DNA of 36,421 nucleotides from a virus: the IMG/VR virus record IMGVR_UViG_3300022934_000069, positions 1-36,421 of that record; one strand, written 5' to 3'. A program made the position numbers and the translations under genes. The notes below the pieces were generated by a model. It ran no database searches. It saw only the letters and a program-made list of their open reading frames with translations, and was not told the origin of the DNA. The number at the start of each line of letters is the position of its first letter. The stretch's first letter is position 1. Positions 6,247 to 32,898 of the stretch are shown one piece after another.

Positions 6247-7533
6247 CTACACCGCGTCCACGATGCTGCGGCCCATGTCGGGCCGGTACGCCGCATAGAC
6301 GGTTTCGATAATCTGCGTGGACTGGCCCGTGACCTGCCCGATGAGATACGGCGACAGGCCCGCTGCAACGGCCCAAGTGATGTAGGACCGCCGGAACGCG
6401 TGGCTGTGCAGTCGCTCTGCCATGTCCTGCACCCGTGGGTCTGGGTCGTCGGCCATTTTGGCCCGCAGCCGACGCAGTTTGCTGCCGATATGCTCGCGCT
6501 GCCACAGCACGTTAGCGTCGGTTGGTTCGCGTTCTGTTGCAGCGCGTTCGAGTATCGGTCGCAAATCCGGCGCGATGGGGACGCTGGGGCGGCGTTTTGA
6601 CGTCTCGCGTATGCCATTCGGCTGCAGGTGGATGACGTCAAGCGCTAGGTCCACACGGTCCCACGTCAGTTCCATTAGAGCGCCGACACGCGCGCCGGTG
6701 TAGCGGACCAGCCAGAGGTATAGTTCCAGCGACGACAAGCGGCTGCGGTCGCCGTAATAGCCGCCCTCGGTTCGCCATGCTTCCGCGTAGTCGAGCACAG
6801 TCGCCCAGTCGTCTTTGGTCAGGACCAGCTTGTCACGAACGACCGGCTTGGCGACCTCAAGCAGTGGTGGCGCGGCGGCTTGCTTAACGCGCTTGGTTTT
6901 GATCGCGTGCCGGACAGCGGCGTTCCAGACAACGGCGTCAAGCCGAAAGCTGTTGTGGCTGATCGTCTGCAGCCGGTGTTCCCGGTACGCGTCTAAGTCT
7001 GCGGTGGTTACATGCTGCAACTGTTTGTTGTCGGTAAGTACATCACGCAGTTTGCCGATAATGCTGCGGAAGCTGGCGCGGGTCGTATAGGTCGCGGCTC
7101 CCAGCTTCTGGTCAAAATAGTCCGACAGCATTTGCTGCACCGTGTACTGCGCGACCGACGTGCCAAGGCCAAGTTCTGCAAGGCGCTGCTCCATTCGACG
7201 CGGTACTTCGTCCGGGTCGCGGGTGCCAAGGGACCGCCGCAGCAGCTTTGGCGGGTCGCCGACATAGACGTGGAGCATATAGAGGTCGCGGTTGGGGCAG
7301 AGCTTAACGTGTGGCCGCTGCTGGTCCCGTATGGCGACGAGCTTGCGCTTGCGTTCTTCGGCGGCCCGCCGTGTCGCGTGCTTGCCGACGCTGTCGTAGT
7401 ACAGTACCAGCGCGCCGTTGGTGTCGCGGTCGTACCAGACCACCCGCAGGTCGTCGGTAGTACCCGGCAAATGTTTTAGGTCGAAAGCCTCGGCCGTGGC
7501 ACTGGGCCGGTCGGCTGTCTTATAGTTTGACAT
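6247..7533 (-). CDS. int: Tyrosine-family integrase
   Basis: This 428-residue protein starts at the ATG at 7533, with AGAGGA upstream. Residues about 20-110 look like an arm-binding or AP2-like N-terminal region, about 125-220 the core-binding SAM-like domain, and 240-428 the catalytic domain. Visible catalytic residues are Arg282 (RYTGARVGAL), Lys313 or nearby (TSKRRPSV), His378/Arg381 (HAFRR) and the nucleophile Tyr413 (ETVYAAY). The usual second His/Trp before the tyrosine is replaced by Gln in TGQSTQ. It would integrate and excise the phage at a host att site. Its start overlaps the end of the upstream repressor gene by 14 bases, so the two are co-transcribed. Confidence 0.92.
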   Translation of the reverse strand: MSNYKTADRPSATAEAFDLKHLPGTTDDLRVVWYDRDTNGALVLYYDSVGKHATRRAAEERKRKLVAIRDQQRPHVKLCPNRDLYMLHVYVGDPPKLLRRSLGTRDPDEVPRRMEQRLAELGLGTSVAQYTVQQMLSDYFDQKLGAATYTTRASFRSIIGKLRDVLTDNKQLQHVTTADLDAYREHRLQTISHNSFRLDAVVWNAAVRHAIKTKRVKQAAAPPLLEVAKPVVRDKLVLTKDDWATVLDYAEAWRTEGGYYGDRSRLSSLELYLWLVRYTGARVGALMELTWDRVDLALDVIHLQPNGIRETSKRRPSVPIAPDLRPILERAATEREPTDANVLWQREHIGSKLRRLRAKMADDPDPRVQDMAERLHSHAFRRSYITWAVAAGLSPYLIGQVTGQSTQIIETVYAAYRPDMGRSIVDAV

Positions 7534-7930
7534 CGACAAAGTCCTCTCGCTTCTTGCGCTCGCTGAAGCGGTTGTTTGCTTCGAGAACCTCATGCAGCAT
7601 TTGGTCGTCCACCGGCATGCCGCCGATGCGCAGGATGAACCACCCTGGCTGGCCGTCTACGGGCTGAAAATTGATGCTGCTGGTCGCGACAGAAACCACC
7701 GTATCATCGAAGGATTCGGGGCAGAGTTCGCGCGGGTCCATCTGCAGGAAGTCCGCGAGCGTTTGCAGCCTGCGGCCGCGTGGTAGGTGCAGGCCGCGCG
7801 CCCAGCCAGATATGGCCTGTTGCGACAGTCCGGTGCTGCGTTGAATTTGCAGCTGCGTGAGATCGCGGTCACGCATGATGCGCTTGAGGCGAGCCGCAAA
7901 GGCGGCAGCGCGTTGCTGATCGTATGCCAT
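7520..7930 (-). CDS. XRE-family transcriptional repressor (CI-like candidate)
   Basis: This 136-residue protein is called from the ATG at 7930, which has GGGAG upstream; an upstream extension to 7993 is less likely. Residues about 10-65 form a helix-turn-helix (LKRIMRDRDLTQLQIQRSTG, then SQQAISGWARG). A short C-terminal part of about 60 residues contains a beta hairpin (FQPVDGQPGWFILRI) and a helical end. There is no LexA-like Ser/Lys peptidase domain, so SOS-type self-cleavage is unlikely. Coupling to the integrase and position beside a divergent early promoter make it the best candidate for the lysogeny repressor. Confidence 0.75.
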   Translation of the reverse strand: MAYDQQRAAAFAARLKRIMRDRDLTQLQIQRSTGLSQQAISGWARGLHLPRGRRLQTLADFLQMDPRELCPESFDDTVVSVATSSINFQPVDGQPGWFILRIGGMPVDDQMLHEVLEANNRFSERKKREDFVDVKL

Positions 7931-7998
7931 AGCAAAGGTCTCCCAATATGTTGCGGATTCACGGAGCGTTTTGCCGCTCTCTTGGTTACGCAATGCAA

Positions 7999-8785: not shown

Positions 8786-9178
8786 ATGACGCAGTCAGAA
8801 AGCCATATTCACACCGAAGTCGCCGACTGGCTGCGTTTCGTTGAGCGCGAATTGGGAGAGCCGCTTATTTGGACGTCGGTTGTCAACGAAGGCCGTCGCG
8901 GCTGGAAGGCGCAACAGACGATTAAGCGGCACGGGCTGCGCAAGGGCTGGCCCGATATCACGATCCTGCACGGCGGCGATTTGCTCTGCATTGAGCTAAA
9001 GGCCGCGAAGGGTCGGTTGTCTCCCGAACAGCGCGTGGTTGGCGAAATCATCCAAGCCGCCGGTGGCTATTGGGCCATGGCGCGGTCGCTAGAGGAGACG
9101 CAGGAATGTCTACGGAACTGGGGTCGAAGCTGGCCGCGCCTGACATGGCAGGAGCTTGGCTTAGGGAACAAATCCTAG
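8786..9178 (+). CDS. VRR-NUC domain nuclease
   Basis: This 130-residue protein matches the stand-alone VRR-NUC fold of the PD-(D/E)XK superfamily. An N-terminal helix (SHIHTEVADWLRF) is followed by NEGRRGWKAQQTIKRHGLRK, then GWPDITIL with the metal-binding Asp and LLCIELKAAKGRLSPEQ with the E-x-K active site. Such phage proteins are thought to process branched or flapped DNA in replication and recombination. It begins the early rightward operon. No Shine-Dalgarno is present, and a predicted promoter sits so close that the message may be leaderless. Its end overlaps the next gene by 73 bases. Confidence 0.85.
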   Translation: MTQSESHIHTEVADWLRFVERELGEPLIWTSVVNEGRRGWKAQQTIKRHGLRKGWPDITILHGGDLLCIELKAAKGRLSPEQRVVGEIIQAAGGYWAMARSLEETQECLRNWGRSWPRLTWQELGLGNKS

Positions 9179-10182
9179 CGCACCTGACAACACCGAAGAC
9201 CTGGGAGCACGACCGCAACGCCTACGTCAGCGCGTCTACCGTGTACCGGTGCCAGCGCGCGCTAAAATACAGCCAGACCCGCGACGCGGCGGAATGGGCC
9301 GGCAACGGCTTCACGGTACGCGGCGACACCATGGAAGAATGGCTGTGCAAGGTGTTCGCGCGTATCGAACGCGAGTTCCGCGTGATCCAGCAGCAGGACA
9401 TTTGGTTCACCGCTATAGGCGACCGCCAAGAAACCCTCCGCGATGAAGCGCTGCGGATTAGCGCCACCCCGGACGGGTTCATGCGCCTCGGCGACACCGG
9501 CGAAGTGGTGTACCTCGAAATTAAGTCCATCGACCCCCGCGTGGTGTTGAACGACCCGAAACCCGCCCACGTCGCGCAGTGCCAATTCGGTATGGAGTTG
9601 TGCCACCGGCTCGACCACAGCAAGCCGCAACGCGCGCTGCTGATCTACGTGGACGCCAGCGACTACGCCGACATCACGATTTTCGAGATACCCCGCGACC
9701 CGGTCGTAGCGCGTGAACTGCTGCGCCGCGCCCAGCTGACCCATGCCGCGCGAACCTACCGCGACCTACCGGCCGAAGGGCTGGCAGCGGGCGGGGCGGA
9801 ATGCTCCGACTGCGCGCTGCGTGACGAATGCACGGCCGAACGGGCAGCGACGATTGGAGCGCTGGACCCGGACAAGCCTGCCATGGCGGCGGACCTACTG
9901 GACGAGCTAGACGACCTAGCGCGGGACCGGGTGACGGCCGCGATAACCGAAGCGGAAGCCAAGCGCAGCAAGGAAGCGCTGGGCGACCGTATCCGCAACA
10001 TTCTCGAAGAACACGGCACCAGCGTCGCGCAGACGCCGGGCTACAAAATTCGCTACAGCGTGACGAAGGGTCGGGAAAGTTTCGACCGCGAAGCCGCTGA
10101 AGCGGATGGGCTGGATTTAAGCCCGTATCTGCGCAGGGGCAATGGGTTCCCGCGTCTCACGGTCACGGAAAACAAGGACTGA
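9106..10182 (+). CDS. Cas4/RecB-like PD-(D/E)XK exonuclease with cysteine cluster
   Basis: This 358-residue protein starts at the ATG at 9106, with GAGGAG upstream. Visible nuclease residues are Asp123 (TPDGFM), Glu138 and Lys140 (YLEIKS) and Gln160 (QCQFGMEL). Cys49 (YRCQRA) together with Cys233, Cys236 and Cys242 (ECSDCALRDEC) form the spacing expected for the iron-sulfur cluster of Cas4/AddB-type nucleases. The last 80 residues are helical and charged. It probably resects DNA ends for recombination-dependent replication or repair. No CRISPR array or cas1/cas2 is present, so a role in spacer acquisition is not indicated. It is followed directly by an SSB-like gene. Confidence 0.8.
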   Translation: MSTELGSKLAAPDMAGAWLREQILAHLTTPKTWEHDRNAYVSASTVYRCQRALKYSQTRDAAEWAGNGFTVRGDTMEEWLCKVFARIEREFRVIQQQDIWFTAIGDRQETLRDEALRISATPDGFMRLGDTGEVVYLEIKSIDPRVVLNDPKPAHVAQCQFGMELCHRLDHSKPQRALLIYVDASDYADITIFEIPRDPVVARELLRRAQLTHAARTYRDLPAEGLAAGGAECSDCALRDECTAERAATIGALDPDKPAMAADLLDELDDLARDRVTAAITEAEAKRSKEALGDRIRNILEEHGTSVAQTPGYKIRYSVTKGRESFDREAAEADGLDLSPYLRRGNGFPRLTVTENKD

Positions 10183-10188
10183 CACGAC

Positions 10189-10992
10189 ATGACAAACGCA
10201 CTCGCAACACTTAACGACTTTTCGCTCGACTTCCTCGACAGCGGCCCGGCAGAACGCCCGCCGTTTGTACGCTTCAAGCAGGGCAGTTGGTACTGCCGCC
10301 CGCTTACCGGCGACGAAGAAGTGGACATTACGGGCAGCCTGTTCTGCGCCGCGCTGCCGACGTTCCGGCAGACGAAGACCGCTTGGTCCGACGACCAGCC
10401 ACAGCCAATGGAAGAACACGCCGCTTATCTTGGACTCGGCCAGCGGCTACCGACGAACCTGACCAGCTACCCGCAACGGGCAAGCGGTGCAGACGCGTGG
10501 CAGGACGGCTTCCAAATCGACGGCATGTTGTTCGTCACGGGGCAGTGGCACCAGGCGACACTAAGCACCGGCACTGTGACGTCGAATATCCAGCTGCGGC
10601 AGGCCATGCAAAACGTCAAGCAGCTCATGGGCCGCACGTTCCGCGCAGCGGACTGGTCCCCGGTCTGGGAGCTTGACAAGCCCAGCACGATCCAGACGCG
10701 TGCCGGTGGCAACGTGAAAGTGCCGACCCTGACGTTCAAAGGCTTGGTCGACCCGACCGGCGAGGCGGCACTTAACCCCGACGCGCCGGACCTGTCCGGG
10801 ATCGTCGAGCCGCTGGTTGGCCGCATTCCGTGCGACCCGAACACGCAAGCGCCGTTCCTGTTGCCGGAAGCTGCGCCTGCCACAAGGCCCATGGGGACCA
10901 ACACGGAAGCCATGCTGGCGTCGGGTGTTTCCGTACCGCAAAAGCCTAGCGGCGGTATGAGCGACACGCTGAACGACGAGATTCCGTTCTAG
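10189..10992 (+). CDS. Single-stranded DNA-binding-like protein
   Basis: This 267-residue protein starts six bases after the exonuclease stop. It is beta-rich in its first two thirds, with FVRFKQGSWYCRP and GFQIDGMLFVTGQW. It ends in SDTLNDEIPF after a flexible Pro/Ser/Gly region, a close mimic of the acidic DDDIPF tip with which bacterial SSB recruits partners. Position between a recombination exonuclease and a primase-helicase supports ssDNA binding during replication. The core fold is not clearly recognisable as a standard OB fold, so the assignment rests mainly on the C-terminal tail and context. A single-strand annealing protein is an alternative. Confidence 0.6.
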   Translation: MTNALATLNDFSLDFLDSGPAERPPFVRFKQGSWYCRPLTGDEEVDITGSLFCAALPTFRQTKTAWSDDQPQPMEEHAAYLGLGQRLPTNLTSYPQRASGADAWQDGFQIDGMLFVTGQWHQATLSTGTVTSNIQLRQAMQNVKQLMGRTFRAADWSPVWELDKPSTIQTRAGGNVKVPTLTFKGLVDPTGEAALNPDAPDLSGIVEPLVGRIPCDPNTQAPFLLPEAAPATRPMGTNTEAMLASGVSVPQKPSGGMSDTLNDEIPF

Positions 10993-11001
10993 GGTCGCGC
11001 C

Positions 11002-11454
11002 GTGCCAAGGAAGACGAACAGCAAACTGGAGTCGCCGCGTCGGGTCAGCCCGGCGCTGCGGCACTGGGCCGACAAGTGCGGCACCGCCAACATGATCGAA
11101 CTCGGCAACCGTATTCGCGAGAAACGCATCGCGTGCGGCATGACGGCTGGCGAAGCGGCGGCGCGTGCGGGTGACTACAGCGGCCGGACCTGGTGGCACT
11201 GGGAAGCGGGCGAACGCGCCATGGGCGTCGAGCAGCTGCTTGCGATTGCGTCGGTGTTTGACTGCTCCGTGAACGAGCTGGTGGCCGACCTGTCGATCCC
11301 AGCGACGCACCCGATCAGTAAAGACCTGCAGCGTATCAGCATGCAGATGCTGCGCGAGTGGTGGCAGCTACCGGAGCGGGAGCGCAACGCGGTCCGCCGG
11401 ATCATTAAAACGCTGAAACGCCGCGAGGCCAAGAATTTCAGGACACTAGACTAA
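11002..11454 (+). CDS. XRE-family HTH regulator
   Basis: This 150-residue protein is called from a GTG at 11002; an internal ATG at 11092 is an alternative start. The helix-turn-helix (IRIREKRIACGMTAGEAAAR region, then WWHWEAGERAMGVEQLLAIA) lies at about residues 33-90. A helical C-terminus follows (MLREWWQLPERERNAVRRII). The stop overlaps the next start (TAATG). It could control early gene timing or act as a replication accessory factor binding near the iterons. No target is known. Confidence 0.65.
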   Translation: MPRKTNSKLESPRRVSPALRHWADKCGTANMIELGNRIREKRIACGMTAGEAAARAGDYSGRTWWHWEAGERAMGVEQLLAIASVFDCSVNELVADLSIPATHPISKDLQRISMQMLREWWQLPERERNAVRRIIKTLKRREAKNFRTLD

Positions 11455-13721
11455 TGGGACACGCCGCCACGCACCTGCGTGAGCTATGGCGGAACGGGCT
11501 ACCCGACGGGCTGGTTATCGAGCTGCGCGACCTGACGAACGGCGCGGCTGCACAGCGGAGCGCGTGGCGCACGGCTGACGAACTGACCGCCATACCGGAC
11601 GCGCCCGCAACCGCCGCGACACCGCAGTTTTTGACCTACAGCCTCGCCGCCATGCGGGACCGCGCGCCGGTGCGTAATGACACCGCGCAACTGCTGCCGT
11701 GTGCGTGGGTGGACATCGACCTGATCGCCAAAGACGACAAGGCCAGCACCGCACCCGACGCGGCCCGTGCCGCCGCTGCGCCCGTGGTGGCCAAACTGGC
11801 TGCGCTGCCCATGCCGCCGTCGAGCGTGGTGTTTAGCGGCGCTGGGCTGCACGCATACTGGCGGCTGGACGACCCAGCGGACGACATGGAGCTGGTGCGC
11901 CGCGTGAACGAACACCTGGCAGGCGAGCTTGGCGGGGACCGCGCTGCCGTGAACCCGAGCCGCGTCCTGCGCCTGCCCGGCACGTACAACGGCCGCCTAG
12001 CGGCCCCGGTGCTGTGCGAGCCTTGGCCCGGTTATGAGCACTGGCGGCATGAGTATTACGTGGAAGACCTGCTGGACCTGCGTGCCGGTTGGGCGGGCGC
12101 ACCTGCGCTGGCACCGGCTGTGGTGGCCGACCCGGCGGCACTGGCGCTGCAGGCGGCTGGCAGTGGCGGCCCTAGCGACCGTGACTGGGCGGCGTGCGAG
12201 CAGCAGATACGCCAAGGTGTGAACTGGCATAGCAACGGCCTGGCGCTGGTGGCGCACTGGGTGCAGCGTGGCGTGCCGGATGAGCAGATACACGCGCGGG
12301 CGGCTGCGGGCTGGACGCTGCCGGGGTACACGTACGACCAGACGACGCGTGAGGTGCAGGGGTTCATTGAAACAGCCGTGGCGCGCTGGGGCAGGCCCGG
12401 CGACCAGCTGCCCGCGAGCACGGACGCACCCGACGCCGCGCTGACGTATGAGCTATGGCGGGCGGAGCGCGCGGTGTTCGACGCGCGGAATGATAAATTT
12501 GTGAATTTGAAAAACGGCACGTATTGGACGCACCGCGCATGGGAAACCGTAAACCGGCATTTCCACGACACGGAACTAACCGACAAAGGCGACGTTAAGC
12601 GGGTCAAATGGATCGACCGGTACAAGGACGACCCGGAGAAAACAATTGTCGAAGGAACGGACGTGCTGCCGGGGCAGCCGGTCATCTGTTACGACCATGA
12701 CGGCACCGCGAAAATAAACCTGTGGCGCGAAAACCCGGCCGTGCAATGGGCGGCGGTTGGCGACCCGGACAGTGCTGCCGTGGCTAAGTTTCGGCAGCTT
12801 GTGCTGTTTCTGTGCGGCGACCGGGAAGACGTGGCGGAGCAAATATATCGCTGGGCCGCGTGCTCACTGTTTCGTGATACGGAGCGCATGCGCTGGGCCG
12901 TGCTGATGATTAGCGAAACAAAAGGCACCGGGAAGTCGATGTTAGCGGAAATCATCCGGCGGCTGCACTACGGCCCGTCAACGGTGTCGTTGGAGACGCT
13001 GGCGCAGCTCACAGGGCGGTTCACGGGGTTTCTGGCGGGTAAGACGTTCTGCGTGGTGCAGGAAGTCACGGACGCCAGCCAGGGGCGATTTAACGCCATG
13101 GAAGCGCTGAAGAGCAGTATCACCGAAGAGTACAGCCAATTGGAAGCCAAGCACAAAGACCCCGAAATGGTTAGAGCGTGGGCACGGTATTGGTTTAACT
13201 CGAATTTTAAAGACGGTTTGATTTTCGATAGCTCAAACGAGCGGCGCATTTTTGCGGTCGTGTGTAAGGCCAAAGATCCGCTCCCGGCGTCATTCTACAT
13301 CAGCGCGGCGATGCACTGCTTGAGCGAGCAGGGACTTTGCGACATAGCGGCTTACCTAAAGCGCGGCTTTGCAGATCGACCGCTGCCGCTGCGCGCGCCG
13401 GAATCCGACACGGACGAAGTAGCCGACGCGATGTTGTCGGACTGGTGCGACGTGCTGAACCAATATGCGCTGACGCACTACGCGGCGGACGGCGGCATTT
13501 CGGTCAGCGGCGAAGACATGCTGCAGATCGTGCGGCACCTATCCGGGCAGCACCTGCGTGGGGGCGGTGTAACGGAGCAGCTGCGGCGCGCCGGTTGGCG
13601 GCGGGTGCGGCGGCGGGATGGTCGCTACTGGTGCCACGGCGACGACGCGGGCGACGAAACGCGCGGCCCGTCAGGTACACTACGGGGCGATATTATCGAC
13701 GGCGGCTCTGCGTTTAGTTGA
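11454..13721 (+). CDS. Primase-helicase (PrimPol-like N-terminus plus SF3-like/DUF5906 helicase)
   Basis: This 755-residue protein has an archaeo-eukaryotic primase-like N-terminus: WVDIDL with Asp87 and Asp89, SGAGLHAYW with His133, and SRVLRLPGTYN at 169-179. The C-terminal half is a phage D5/SF3-type ATPase: Walker A SETKGTGKS near 486-494, Walker B-like VVQEVTD near 530-536 and the WFNSN sensor near 579-583. A winged-helix-like end follows. Such proteins unwind the origin and prime synthesis. No DNA polymerase is found here, so the host polymerase presumably extends. The gene ends five bases before an iteron array, making origin recognition by this protein or the upstream XRE protein plausible. 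Confidence 0.85.
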   Translation: MGHAATHLRELWRNGLPDGLVIELRDLTNGAAAQRSAWRTADELTAIPDAPATAATPQFLTYSLAAMRDRAPVRNDTAQLLPCAWVDIDLIAKDDKASTAPDAARAAAAPVVAKLAALPMPPSSVVFSGAGLHAYWRLDDPADDMELVRRVNEHLAGELGGDRAAVNPSRVLRLPGTYNGRLAAPVLCEPWPGYEHWRHEYYVEDLLDLRAGWAGAPALAPAVVADPAALALQAAGSGGPSDRDWAACEQQIRQGVNWHSNGLALVAHWVQRGVPDEQIHARAAAGWTLPGYTYDQTTREVQGFIETAVARWGRPGDQLPASTDAPDAALTYELWRAERAVFDARNDKFVNLKNGTYWTHRAWETVNRHFHDTELTDKGDVKRVKWIDRYKDDPEKTIVEGTDVLPGQPVICYDHDGTAKINLWRENPAVQWAAVGDPDSAAVAKFRQLVLFLCGDREDVAEQIYRWAACSLFRDTERMRWAVLMISETKGTGKSMLAEIIRRLHYGPSTVSLETLAQLTGRFTGFLAGKTFCVVQEVTDASQGRFNAMEALKSSITEEYSQLEAKHKDPEMVRAWARYWFNSNFKDGLIFDSSNERRIFAVVCKAKDPLPASFYISAAMHCLSEQGLCDIAAYLKRGFADRPLPLRAPESDTDEVADAMLSDWCDVLNQYALTHYAADGGISVSGEDMLQIVRHLSGQHLRGGGVTEQLRRAGWRRVRRRDGRYWCHGDDAGDETRGPSGTLRGDIIDGGSAFS

Positions 13722-13725
13722 ATCT

Positions 13726-13778
13726 GTGACGCGTTGTGACGCGTTGGTGACGCGTTGTGACGCGTTGGTGACGCGTTG
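13726..13778 (+). repeat. Five tandem iteron-like GTGACGCGTTG units
   Basis: Units start at 13726, 13736, 13747, 13757 and 13768, giving alternating spacings of 10 and 11 bases. The period is therefore 21 bp per two units, 10.5 bp per unit, so each unit faces the same side of the helix. The core ACGCGT is itself palindromic. Confidence 0.9.
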
Positions 13779-13897
13779 GAAACGTCGAAAAATCGTTTAG
13801 GGCCAACGGGTTAAGCCGTATTTACCTATTCTGTGACACGTTGGTAGTAAAAAAAGGAACAGAGAAAAGAAGCGGAAGCGGCACAGCGCCGCAAAAA

Positions 13898-13940
13898 CCG
13901 CCCTGTGACGCGTCACAACGTGTCACGGATCACAGGGCGG
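13898..13940 (-). terminator. Hairpin with T-tract ending the leftward operon, overlapping origin motifs
   Basis: CCGCCCTGTGA (13898-13908) and TCACAGGGCGG (13930-13940) form a perfect 11-bp stem. Read on the minus strand it is followed by TTTTTGC, so it is a good intrinsic terminator for the leftward genes ending at 13959. The loop and arms contain the iteron-type motifs, so the element may have a second role. Confidence 0.65.
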
Positions 13941-13958
13941 GGCGGCTGTTTAGGCCGG

Positions 13959-14249
13959 TTATTCGGGCGCGACGCCCGCGTTTTGTTGGCGTTTCTGCTC
14001 TGCGGCCCAGTACGCAATTTCGCGCAATGCGTCGCGCCAGTGCCGCGCGGCGACGGTCGCCTCTAGGTCTTGGTCGCTAACCGTTCCGGCGTCACAGACG
14101 CGTTTCATGTCGGCATAGCCCCGCGCCGCGACTTCTGCGAGCGTGCGCAGCCCTTCCAGCGAAATGCTCAAGTGTGTGTCGCCCTGTGCATCCGCTGGGC
14201 CATAGCCGTGGATTTGGGAATCGGCGAGCCAGTACATTGGTCGTTTCAT
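13959..14249 (-). CDS. Orphan protein of the leftward operon (96 aa)
   Basis: The start at 14249 has TTGGAG upstream. The protein is mainly helical: a short N-terminal segment (MKRPMYWLADSQIHGYG), then LEGLRTLAEVAARGYADMKR and RHWRDALREIAYWAAEQ. No membrane segment, HTH or enzyme motif is seen. It is the last gene of a five-gene leftward operon of unknown role, just before the terminator at the candidate origin. Small, unrelated early genes of this kind often act on the host or its defences, but nothing here shows that. Confidence 0.6.
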   Translation of the reverse strand: MKRPMYWLADSQIHGYGPADAQGDTHLSISLEGLRTLAEVAARGYADMKRVCDAGTVSDQDLEATVAARHWRDALREIAYWAAEQKRQQNAGVAPE

Positions 14250-14296
14250 GGTGTGCTCCAAAAAAGTTTTCCGGTGTTTCAAGTTGCGTTGCTTGG

Positions 14297-14392
14297 TCAG
14301 TACGGGGTGAGCGCCCAGACGTGCAGCGACCAAACGAGCACGCCCAGCAATGCGCCGGTGCAGACGGCCATAACGGCCCGATGGGTTGTCAT
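14297..14392 (-). CDS. 31-aa single-pass membrane micropeptide
   Basis: A short frame starts at the ATG at 14392, preceded by GGGAG eight bases away, the same leader as the next gene upstream. The product has a basic start (MTTHRAVM) and one hydrophobic segment (AVCTGALLGVLVWSLHVWAL), ending TPY. Leader duplication and a good Shine-Dalgarno support translation. It could be an inner-membrane regulator; the function is unknown. Confidence 0.5.
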   Translation of the reverse strand: MTTHRAVMAVCTGALLGVLVWSLHVWALTPY

Positions 14393-14444
14393 GTCGGTTG
14401 CTCCCATGGTGCGGCGGGCCGCCGGTATGACGGCGCACCAGTTT
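14391..14444 (-). repeat. Repeated structured leader, copy A (before the micropeptide)
   Basis: This copy and 14790-14842 align over about 53 bases with a two-base length difference and few mismatches. Both hold the same Shine-Dalgarno (minus GGGAGCAACCGAC before ATG) and a GC-rich hairpin. In this copy the outer stem TGGTGCG (14407-14413) pairs with CGCACCA (14434-14440). Confidence 0.75.
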
Positions 14445-14452
14445 GTTGTTGG

Positions 14453-14791
14453 TCAATTAAACGTGCTGATGGCTGCAAAAAGGCCCTTGATGTAGCGGCC
14501 CGTTGCTTGTGCGTGCTCGTAAAGCGCTCGCTTCATGCCGTGCTTAGGGAGCTGATCGAATGGGACCAGCACCGAAACAGGAGCGCCGTCTAAAACGCCG
14601 TGGCAGTAACTAACGTCCCAAAACGGGCAACCGGGGTCTGACAGCAGTCGCAGGCGCGTGATGGTCAGGCCCGGCGCATCCCAGGGGACGGTCGGCGCGT
14701 TAGCGAATTGGCGGTGGTAAATATCCGGGGCTGTCAGGCCGCCTATTTCAATCGTGCCGTTGATGTTTCGGTTGGTGGTCTCTTTAAACAT
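14453..14791 (-). CDS. Orphan protein of the leftward operon (112 aa)
   Basis: The start is set at 14791 by the leader-encoded GGGAG; six extra codons upstream lack such a site. The protein has a beta-rich core (GTIEIGGLTAPDIYHRQF, LTITRLRLLSDPGCPFWDVS, APVSVLVPFDQLP) and a C-terminal helix (GMKRALYEHAQATGRYIKGL). The two cysteines in GCPFW and SYCHG are close but make no known motif. No family is recognised. Confidence 0.6.
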   Translation of the reverse strand: MFKETTNRNINGTIEIGGLTAPDIYHRQFANAPTVPWDAPGLTITRLRLLSDPGCPFWDVSYCHGVLDGAPVSVLVPFDQLPKHGMKRALYEHAQATGRYIKGLFAAISTFN

Positions 14792-31133: not shown

Positions 31134-32898
31134 GTTTCTCGTTGAAATTGACGGCAAGCGTTACGCAGTAGAAGCGGCGAACCAGAAAGCCGCTGCAAGC
31201 GCGGTGCGCACGATGCTTGCTGCCGACGCCCCAGCTGCACCGGCTGCGCAGCGCCGCACTGGCAACGACGTCGGTAACACGCTGCGCACGGGGCTGGGGC
31301 AAGGGCTTGGCTTTGGTTTCGGCGATGAACTTGAGGCCGGGGTTCGCTCGCTATTTAGCGACCGCAGCTATGGCGACATCCGCGGCGACATTAGCGACGA
31401 AATCGACGCGTTCCGGTCCCGCAATCCGGGCCTCGCATACGGCAGCGAAATTGTCGGTGCGCTAGGGCCGACGTTGGCCGCTGCGGCTGCTACGCCATTC
31501 ACGGCTGGCGGCGCTGGCGCTGGCGCAGCTGCAGGCGCAGGGCGCATCGCAATGGCTGGTAACAAGCTGCGCCAGTTGGCGACCCCGGCACTACGGCCTG
31601 TCGCGCAGCCTATTGCTAAAGCGTCCAAAGCCGTTGACGCGGTGCTGCCTACCGGCCCGATAAAGCGCGCTGCCACGGTTGGCGCTGTGCAGGGCGGCAT
31701 TTCCGGCGCTGGCTACGCGGAAGGCGGGCTAGAGGACCGTGCAGGCGGCGCTGCGGTGGGGGCTGGGCTTGGCGCTGCAATTCCGGGCCTCGGCGCTGCG
31801 GTGCTGCCACGGCTTTCCGACGTAAGTAAGAAGGCGATCCAGTCTGGCGTGAACATGACGCCGGGGCAGGCGTTTGGCGGCATCTACAATAAGATCGAGC
31901 AGCTAGGGACGAGCACGCTGAGCGGTGGCGCGATCACTGGCCGCCGCATCGCTGCAGACGCCGACTACTTCCCGGTCCGCGTCAACAAAGCGCTGGCTGG
32001 CGTTGGCAAGCAGCTTGACGACCCTGACGCTGCGCCGAACCAAATCATGGAACAGCTGCTGGACAAGACCAGCGAAGCCTACGACGACGCTGCGAAGCTA
32101 ATGTCCGTCAAGGGCGAAGGCGCGATCATCGTCAACAAAGCGGCCCGCGACGCCTTGGCCGGAATGGACGACACTTTGGTCGAGCAAGTCGTCAGGACAA
32201 TGAACGTCGCGGCGTCTCGGCTGCCGAAACCCAAAGGCGACGCGTTGCGCGCGGCCATGAACCAGCTAGAGCTGGGCGTTAAGCCACGGCTCACGGCGGT
32301 TGACCTGAGCGGCGACGAAATCCTGATGATTAAGAACCTGCTGCGGGAGCAAGCGCGCTTAGTCGGCAAGAACAAGAACCACGCTTTACGGGGCGCGTAT
32401 GAACGCCTGCAGCGCGGTATCGTAAACGAAGCAGGCCGGTCGTCTGGCGGGAAAGCAGCCGCTGCGCTGGGCCGTGCGGACGCGCTGTATCGGGACGTCG
32501 CAGGCGTCATTGGCCCCGCAATGCGTAGGTCTCGAATCGACAGAGCGCCCCGCATCGCCGACTACGGCCGCGAGTCCGCTAAGAACCAAACGAAATATGG
32601 CCGCAAACAGGCGATGCTCGACCAGGCGCTGGACGATACCGCGCTGTCGGAGCTTACGGCCAACACGGTCGCAAACAGCGGCTCGATAGATCGCGGCACG
32701 CTCATGGCGCTTGTTGGTGGCCTCGGCACGGGCTTTATCAACCCGATGTTCCTTACCGCACAGCTCGCCGGTGTGCCGTACATGACCCCGCAAACCACCG
32801 CCGCGCTACGGCAGGGCCTGCTCGCACCGGGCCGCATCACGCAGGCGCTTGGCGGGCGCTTTGGCGGCATGATTGGAGGCGCAAATGCCCAAGAATAA
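31126..32898 (+). CDS. Large internal virion / ejection protein (590 aa)
   Basis: The start overlaps the preceding stop by eight bases. The N-terminus RFLVEIDGKRYAVEAANQKA is followed by a glycine-rich region (GLGQGLGFGFGDELEAGVRS) and a hydrophobic Gly/Ala-rich block (AAAAATPFTAGGAGAGAAAG; AVGAGLGAAIPGLGAAVLPR). A helical middle (DLSGDEILMIKNLLREQARL) and C-terminal hydrophobic patch follow. Glycine-zipper segments like these can form membrane channels. Length, order after the lysozyme-domain protein and pattern fit podovirus core proteins used for DNA ejection. No enzyme domain is seen. Confidence 0.65.
   Translation: MARFLVEIDGKRYAVEAANQKAAASAVRTMLAADAPAAPAAQRRTGNDVGNTLRTGLGQGLGFGFGDELEAGVRSLFSDRSYGDIRGDISDEIDAFRSRNPGLAYGSEIVGALGPTLAAAAATPFTAGGAGAGAAAGAGRIAMAGNKLRQLATPALRPVAQPIAKASKAVDAVLPTGPIKRAATVGAVQGGISGAGYAEGGLEDRAGGAAVGAGLGAAIPGLGAAVLPRLSDVSKKAIQSGVNMTPGQAFGGIYNKIEQLGTSTLSGGAITGRRIAADADYFPVRVNKALAGVGKQLDDPDAAPNQIMEQLLDKTSEAYDDAAKLMSVKGEGAIIVNKAARDALAGMDDTLVEQVVRTMNVAASRLPKPKGDALRAAMNQLELGVKPRLTAVDLSGDEILMIKNLLREQARLVGKNKNHALRGAYERLQRGIVNEAGRSSGGKAAAALGRADALYRDVAGVIGPAMRRSRIDRAPRIADYGRESAKNQTKYGRKQAMLDQALDDTALSELTANTVANSGSIDRGTLMALVGGLGTGFINPMFLTAQLAGVPYMTPQTTAALRQGLLAPGRITQALGGRFGGMIGGANAQE

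Follow-up and report, generated by a model that had tools for sequence, protein, structure and literature searches.

An iteron array directly 3′ of a DUF5906 primase-helicase gene as the predicted replication origin of a phage

Classical plasmid iteron origins (Rep_3/RepA type) carry iterons of 17-22 bp and use a Rep_3-type initiator. In P4 (annotation of NC_001609), type-1 iterons are found 9-11 bp apart (9 bp in crr and 10-11 bp in ori1), and the 3′ end of the gene for the primase-helicase alpha is directly followed by crr. In the origins of PICIs, an AT-rich region flanked by two iteron sets follows immediately on the 3′ side of the initiator gene, and PICI pri-ori plasmids replicate; in 2018 this layout was described as peculiar to PICIs and present in no other known bacterial replicon (PMC6092414). 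SaPI Rep and the SCCmec protein Cch2 bind such sites through their C-terminal domains (PMC7581432).

The stretch of DNA analysed here (the window) is an IMG/VR virus contig of 36,421 bases. It carries integrase, terminase, portal and major head genes, indicating a temperate phage or most of one. The integrase gene (6247-7593, minus strand) and the gene of a second XRE-type protein that weakly matched the repressors DicA and RstR (7520-7993, minus strand) form a lysogeny module. A RecE-like exonuclease (9070-10182) is followed by a protein (10189-10992, plus strand) whose C-terminal DEIPF resembles an SSB tail; this protein matched no family in Pfam, PHROG or NCBIfam. An HTH (XRE) gene lies at 11002, just upstream of the primase-helicase gene (11454..13721, plus strand), whose product of 755 aa is the proposed initiator and iteron reader. 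The product belongs to the DUF5906 SF3/D5-type helicases (Pfam PF19263, E 2.9e-19) and matched PHROG DNA primase families. Its N-terminus is RepB_primase-like, with a Pfam match below the cut-off, and no Pfam match was obtained at the C-terminus. PDB matches were the NrS-1 helicase (6k9c) and the SaPI5 primase-helicase (7ola), both also matched by the fold of the model; the AlphaFold model of the window helicase showed a good core and a low-confidence C-terminus. Judged from these sequence and fold matches, the initiator combines a primase with a D5/SF3-type helicase.

All repeats of the array are located in the gap of 237 bp after the primase-helicase gene (positions 13722-13958). Direct reading of the sequence placed the stop codon TGA at 13719-13721 (plus strand), and direct reading together with motif search placed five copies of GTGACGCGTTG on the plus strand at 13726..13778. 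These start at 13726, 13736, 13747, 13757 and 13768, i.e. at spacings of 10, 11, 10 and 11 bp, the first of them on the fifth base past the stop codon, and at the 10-bp spacing adjacent 11-mer units overlap by one G. By the same two means, the variant GTGACACGTTG was found as an inner-left iteron at 13833-13843 (plus strand) and as an inverted inner-right iteron at 13916-13926 (minus strand). The perfect palindrome TGTGACGCGTCACA (13904-13917) equals two overlapping iteron cores in opposite orientation, and an A-rich patch lies between 13850 and 13885. This was in agreement with the earlier note on this DNA, which had described five units alternating at 10 and 11 bp and starting five bases after the stop, two variants (one of them inverted), a perfect palindrome and an A-rich patch. 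In total, nine GTGACRCG sites were counted, seven on the plus and two on the minus strand; the left set is in plus orientation, the right set is inverted and short, and the two sets are complementary to each other. No exact copy of GTGACRCGTTG was present elsewhere in the window, and a single copy with one mismatch was found at 32237. The array is far above chance expectation: chains of identical 9-mers spaced by 10/11 bp reached a length of five, compared with at most two in 60 sequences simulated at equal composition, and the commonest 8-mer of the gap occurred seven times, compared with a maximum of four in 2000 dinucleotide shuffles.

The 60 bp of lowest stability in the contig (13811..13870, top 0.03%), a candidate DNA unwinding element, sit between the left and right sets and overlap the lone iteron at 13833. 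A minus-strand hairpin closed by 12 pairs, with TTTTT after it (13893..13940; -31.5 kcal/mol, z -6.0), is probably the terminator of the leftward genes; it was not called in a simple terminator scan. It overlaps the palindrome and the inverted iteron, so that the candidate terminator and the right-hand iterons use the same bases. With the right-hand iterons inside a strong hairpin with a minus-strand T-run, and left and right sets complementary, the whole array could serve to end transcription, or form an RNA structure, where the two genes converge, the repeats only building hairpins. A terminator, however, needs no five tandem direct copies, and the 9/11-bp spacing, the AT-rich gap and the link to the protein C-terminus described below would be left unexplained, which places this explanation among the two least probable. 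The next gene (13959..14456, minus strand; an ORF, with related sequence also past the array in the relative L003) converges on the primase-helicase gene, so the array lies between two 3′ ends. Short repeated sites with a palindrome, and an HTH gene nearby, would also be typical of an operator array, with the XRE protein at 11002 as a possible repressor; the convergent neighbours, and the result that no promoter-like site was found at the array, argue against it. Cumulative GC skew, which had been proposed as a check on the origin, reached its maximum near 15.5 kb with no sharp peak at the gap, and was not decisive for the gap.

Three near-full-length relatives of the primase-helicase, 74-77% identical, were found in the sister phages L003, L004 and L005. 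Arrays were present directly after the gene in all three, and their units differed from those of the window, being GGGACACGTTG/GGGACGGGT in L004 and L005 and AAGACACC in L003. Site offsets from the stop codon nearly agreed between L003 and L004/L005 (45/55, 108/117 and 181/190 versus 44/56, 108/117 and 184/193). Place and geometry are kept among the sisters, with the letters replaced. A search of IMG/VR for the exact array pattern of the window gave no match, and distant blastn of the array region against phage records yielded nothing. A small inverted repeat, TGAGACGTTTGTCTCG (L003:6106-6124), was observed right after the primase stop, at the same place in L004 and L005; it is kept in the three sisters despite their differing iterons and is absent from the window. 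The XRE protein encoded at 11002 is 100% identical in the window, L003 and L005 and 98.7% identical in L004, while the repeat units of the four phages differ three ways. This protein is therefore very unlikely to be the reader, and an operator array is very improbable, slightly more so than the next alternative. According to the latter, the repeats are clustered start sites (GTG/GTGA) that the N-terminal primase domain recognises on single-stranded DNA, and not double-stranded sites for an initiator. The solved relative closest in sequence is the NrS-1 polymerase, for which GTG(A/G) and TTTGGTTA serve as start sites (PMC8718748), and the window unit opens with GTGAC. The unit changes, however, while the N-terminal half of the protein stays 90-100% identical between the window and L005 (first 320 alignment columns), identity falling to 35-50% at the C-terminal end, and the units of many relatives lack GTG. 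Start sites as the explanation of the array are thus improbable, though the least so of the alternatives weighed here; a start-site role may exist in addition to the iteron role.

The position of the variable part of the protein was narrowed down by comparison of L003 with L005. Outside the diverged segments the gene DNA is 94% identical, whereas identity is 60% in 24 codons of the putative C-terminal wing (712-735). Beyond the wing it is 96% in the last 16 codons and stop, 85% in the next 20 bases and 44% in the iterons. Of 29 amino-acid differences between the two proteins, 13 fall within 24 of 752 residues (3% of the protein; P 4e-14). L004 and L005, which have their iterons in common, are 96% identical in both variable segments. 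Alignment to the sister phages would place the corresponding wing codons of the window at 13602..13679 (plus strand; residues about 717-742). Because the wing and iteron segments are separated by conserved DNA, a single crossover is insufficient to explain the pattern; a double recombination could have carried both segments together. The co-variation is based on few independent switches.

Among 152 related genes, 150 (98.7%) had at least 4 copies of one 7-mer within 350 bp 3′ of the primase-helicase stop, and 89% had at least 6, counted with the version of the 7-mer filter that includes GTGTTGGGT. Control windows from the same loci (n=2,699) reached at least 4 copies in 2.5% and at least 6 in 0.04%; upstream of the gene the values were 1.4% and 0%. 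In P4, used as a positive control of the scan, seven copies of GTGAACA were counted within the 350 bp that follow alpha. Within the window, up to 7 copies of CAGCGCC in 350 bp were also observed at about 31450-31900, inside a coding region; this repeat is composition-driven, yet equals the score of the origin in the 7-mer scan. As most of the 152 loci had been retrieved by array-bearing queries, a separate sample was drawn with PF19263 from 299 genomes of one phylum, giving 25 scored loci after exclusion of previously sampled genomes. At least 4 copies were found in 16/25 and at least 5 in 12/25 downstream stretches of 400 bp, compared with 8/389 (2%) and 1/389 control windows of 350 bp. Units vary widely between loci, many being without GTG (e.g. 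TTCCGAC, TGTCTGA and TGGGACG), and the preferred distances between them are 9 and 11 bp, with a further maximum at 20-21 bp. In 94%, the widest gap in the array had more AT than its own locus, and in 87% it was flanked by opposite orientations.

An array right after the gene was absent in phiVC8, CN2, MP1412, BUCT_47333, phiM5, Vibrio 1.021.B and PEi21, which have DUF5906-like primases, and the link between array and primase is therefore not universal. In Salmonella phage YSD1 (L164:3990-4260), a GTTACAA cluster in both orientations surrounds AT-rich DNA past an HTH gene, about 400 bp further downstream, and is likely a displaced origin. Edwardsiella phage PEi21 (L170:4150-4500) showed 12 copies of CCTGCGC in 350 bp, about 700 bp past the primase gene. 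Integrase arm sites, a packaging site or neutral repeat expansion were considered as further explanations of the window array. The only match in a search with GTGACACGTTGTGACACG was L206, where the repeats are near an integrase-like gene and no primase is present. At L206:5639-5656 and around it, a tRNA 3′ end is flanked by two GTGACACG pairs spaced by 10-11 bp, which are possibly integrase arm sites. Although this setting in L206 favours arm sites, the integrase of the window is 6 kb distant, and neither an integrase function nor neutral expansion fits units that change at a position kept behind primase-helicase genes. These explanations are as remote as the terminator reading.

A second set of loci again connected the iteron with the C-terminus. 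The majority of about 100 Pseudomonas-type loci carry the GTGTTGGG iteron, and in L102, L105, L107 and L108 the main unit is GTGTGCA. The motif TKFAEF occurred only in these four GTGTGCA loci; the others had TKFSLF, TKFSLM or TKFALF. The four loci probably represent one evolutionary event. In the model of the C-terminal domain of L083 (mean pLDDT 89), helix 75-88 and helix 96-104 are followed by four strands, and the TKFAEF/TKFSLF residues fall on helix 96-104, ahead of the strand-rich wing. The order of these elements suggests a putative winged helix with the TKF residues on its recognition helix. A structural search with a relative's C-terminal model yielded no significant match (best Z under 6); among the best matches were many winged-helix proteins, several of them origin-binding (origin recognition complexes). 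The winged-helix assignment of the C-terminal domain, derived from the model of a relative and weak structural matches, is accordingly a putative one. When protein distance was correlated with iteron distance in sliding windows across all 140 loci, the C-terminus did not stand out, as divergence between clades is the dominant signal; co-variation was judged instead by the local comparisons of the TKF motif loci and of L003 with L005.

The kept place without kept letters, the co-variation with the C-terminus and the unstable AT-rich spacer lead us to regard it as highly probable that the gap is the replication origin of the phage, of the P4-crr/PICI kind, with the C-terminal winged-helix-like domain of the primase-helicase as its predicted reader. 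The features of this kind observed here are an array immediately 3′ of the initiator gene and two sets flanking an unstable spacer. In the mechanism that we propose, the C-terminal domain would read GTGACRCGTTG, docking the helicase subunits on the DNA, and repeats about once per helical turn would align the protomers on one DNA face. On the left set (13726-13778 and 13833) and the inverted right set (13904-13926), two helicase rings would be placed facing in opposite directions, and these rings would melt the AT-rich spacer around 13811-13870. Replication would then start with priming by the primase domain and extension by a polymerase of the host, since no DNA polymerase gene was noticed in the phage.

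The same three lines of evidence support the origin reading of the earlier note. Of the two readers named there, the primase-helicase is favoured by the co-variation, while the XRE protein at 11002 is counter-indicated, being identical in the window, L003 and L005 despite their differing units. The comparison with related phages, proposed there, showed conservation of the place after the helicase gene and not of the letters. The suggestion of a new origin type has to be withdrawn, as the layout is already that of P4 crr and PICI/SaPI origins, and one-turn spacing is no novelty, as the type-1 iterons of P4 show.

The tight pairing of the iteron letters with a small C-terminal segment, as it appears from sequence comparison, was unexpected, and so was the spread of the layout through full-size phages. 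With the layout present in such phages, the origins of many uncultured phages can be placed by sequence alone. Whether phages with DUF5906 primase-helicases share one origin plan, in which this small segment and the iteron switch together fast within an otherwise unchanged gene, we consider evenly balanced. If so, iteron and reader would be mutually predictable, and their pairing would set which phages and satellites can replicate each other's origins. The natural pairs (L003 versus L005; TKFSLF versus TKFAEF) pinpoint residues likely to choose the iteron and make origin specificity between phages and satellites directly testable.

Compared with the known systems, a classical plasmid iteron origin was rejected, as the units are of 10-11 bp and the adjacent initiator is a DUF5906 protein; no Rep_3 match was found among the 10 window proteins scanned. 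SCCmec resembles the window in that its AAGTG iterons lie just downstream of the gene of the helicase Cch2 itself (PMC7581432), but it has three 5-bp iterons only and a separate A-family polymerase as primase. The phage NrS-1, the best PDB match, likewise has a primase fused to an SF3 hexameric helicase; its reported recognition site, in contrast, is of 8 nt, with two genome copies and no array (PMC7102993). P4 shares with the window 8-bp repeats about one turn apart in both orientations, and its alpha protein also matches DUF5906, whereas the iteron letters differ and P4, a satellite, also has a separate ori1. Alpha has a zinc-ribbon/Toprim primase N-terminus and a Pox_D5 C-terminus above the cut-off, neither of which is present in the window protein; an alpha-type protein was rejected, as the window protein matches just DUF5906 and, below the cut-off, RepB_primase. 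PICI/SaPI origins are alike in their paired short iteron sets with an AT-rich middle, 3′ of the initiator gene, and in the fold match to the SaPI5 primase-helicase. PICIs have no structural genes and are about 12-15 kb in size, and a PICI was rejected for this 36.4-kb contig, in which terminase, portal and major head genes point to a phage. What is new is that complete, full-size phages have the PICI-type layout, and that many DUF5906 primase-helicase genes in bacterial genomes are followed by it as well.
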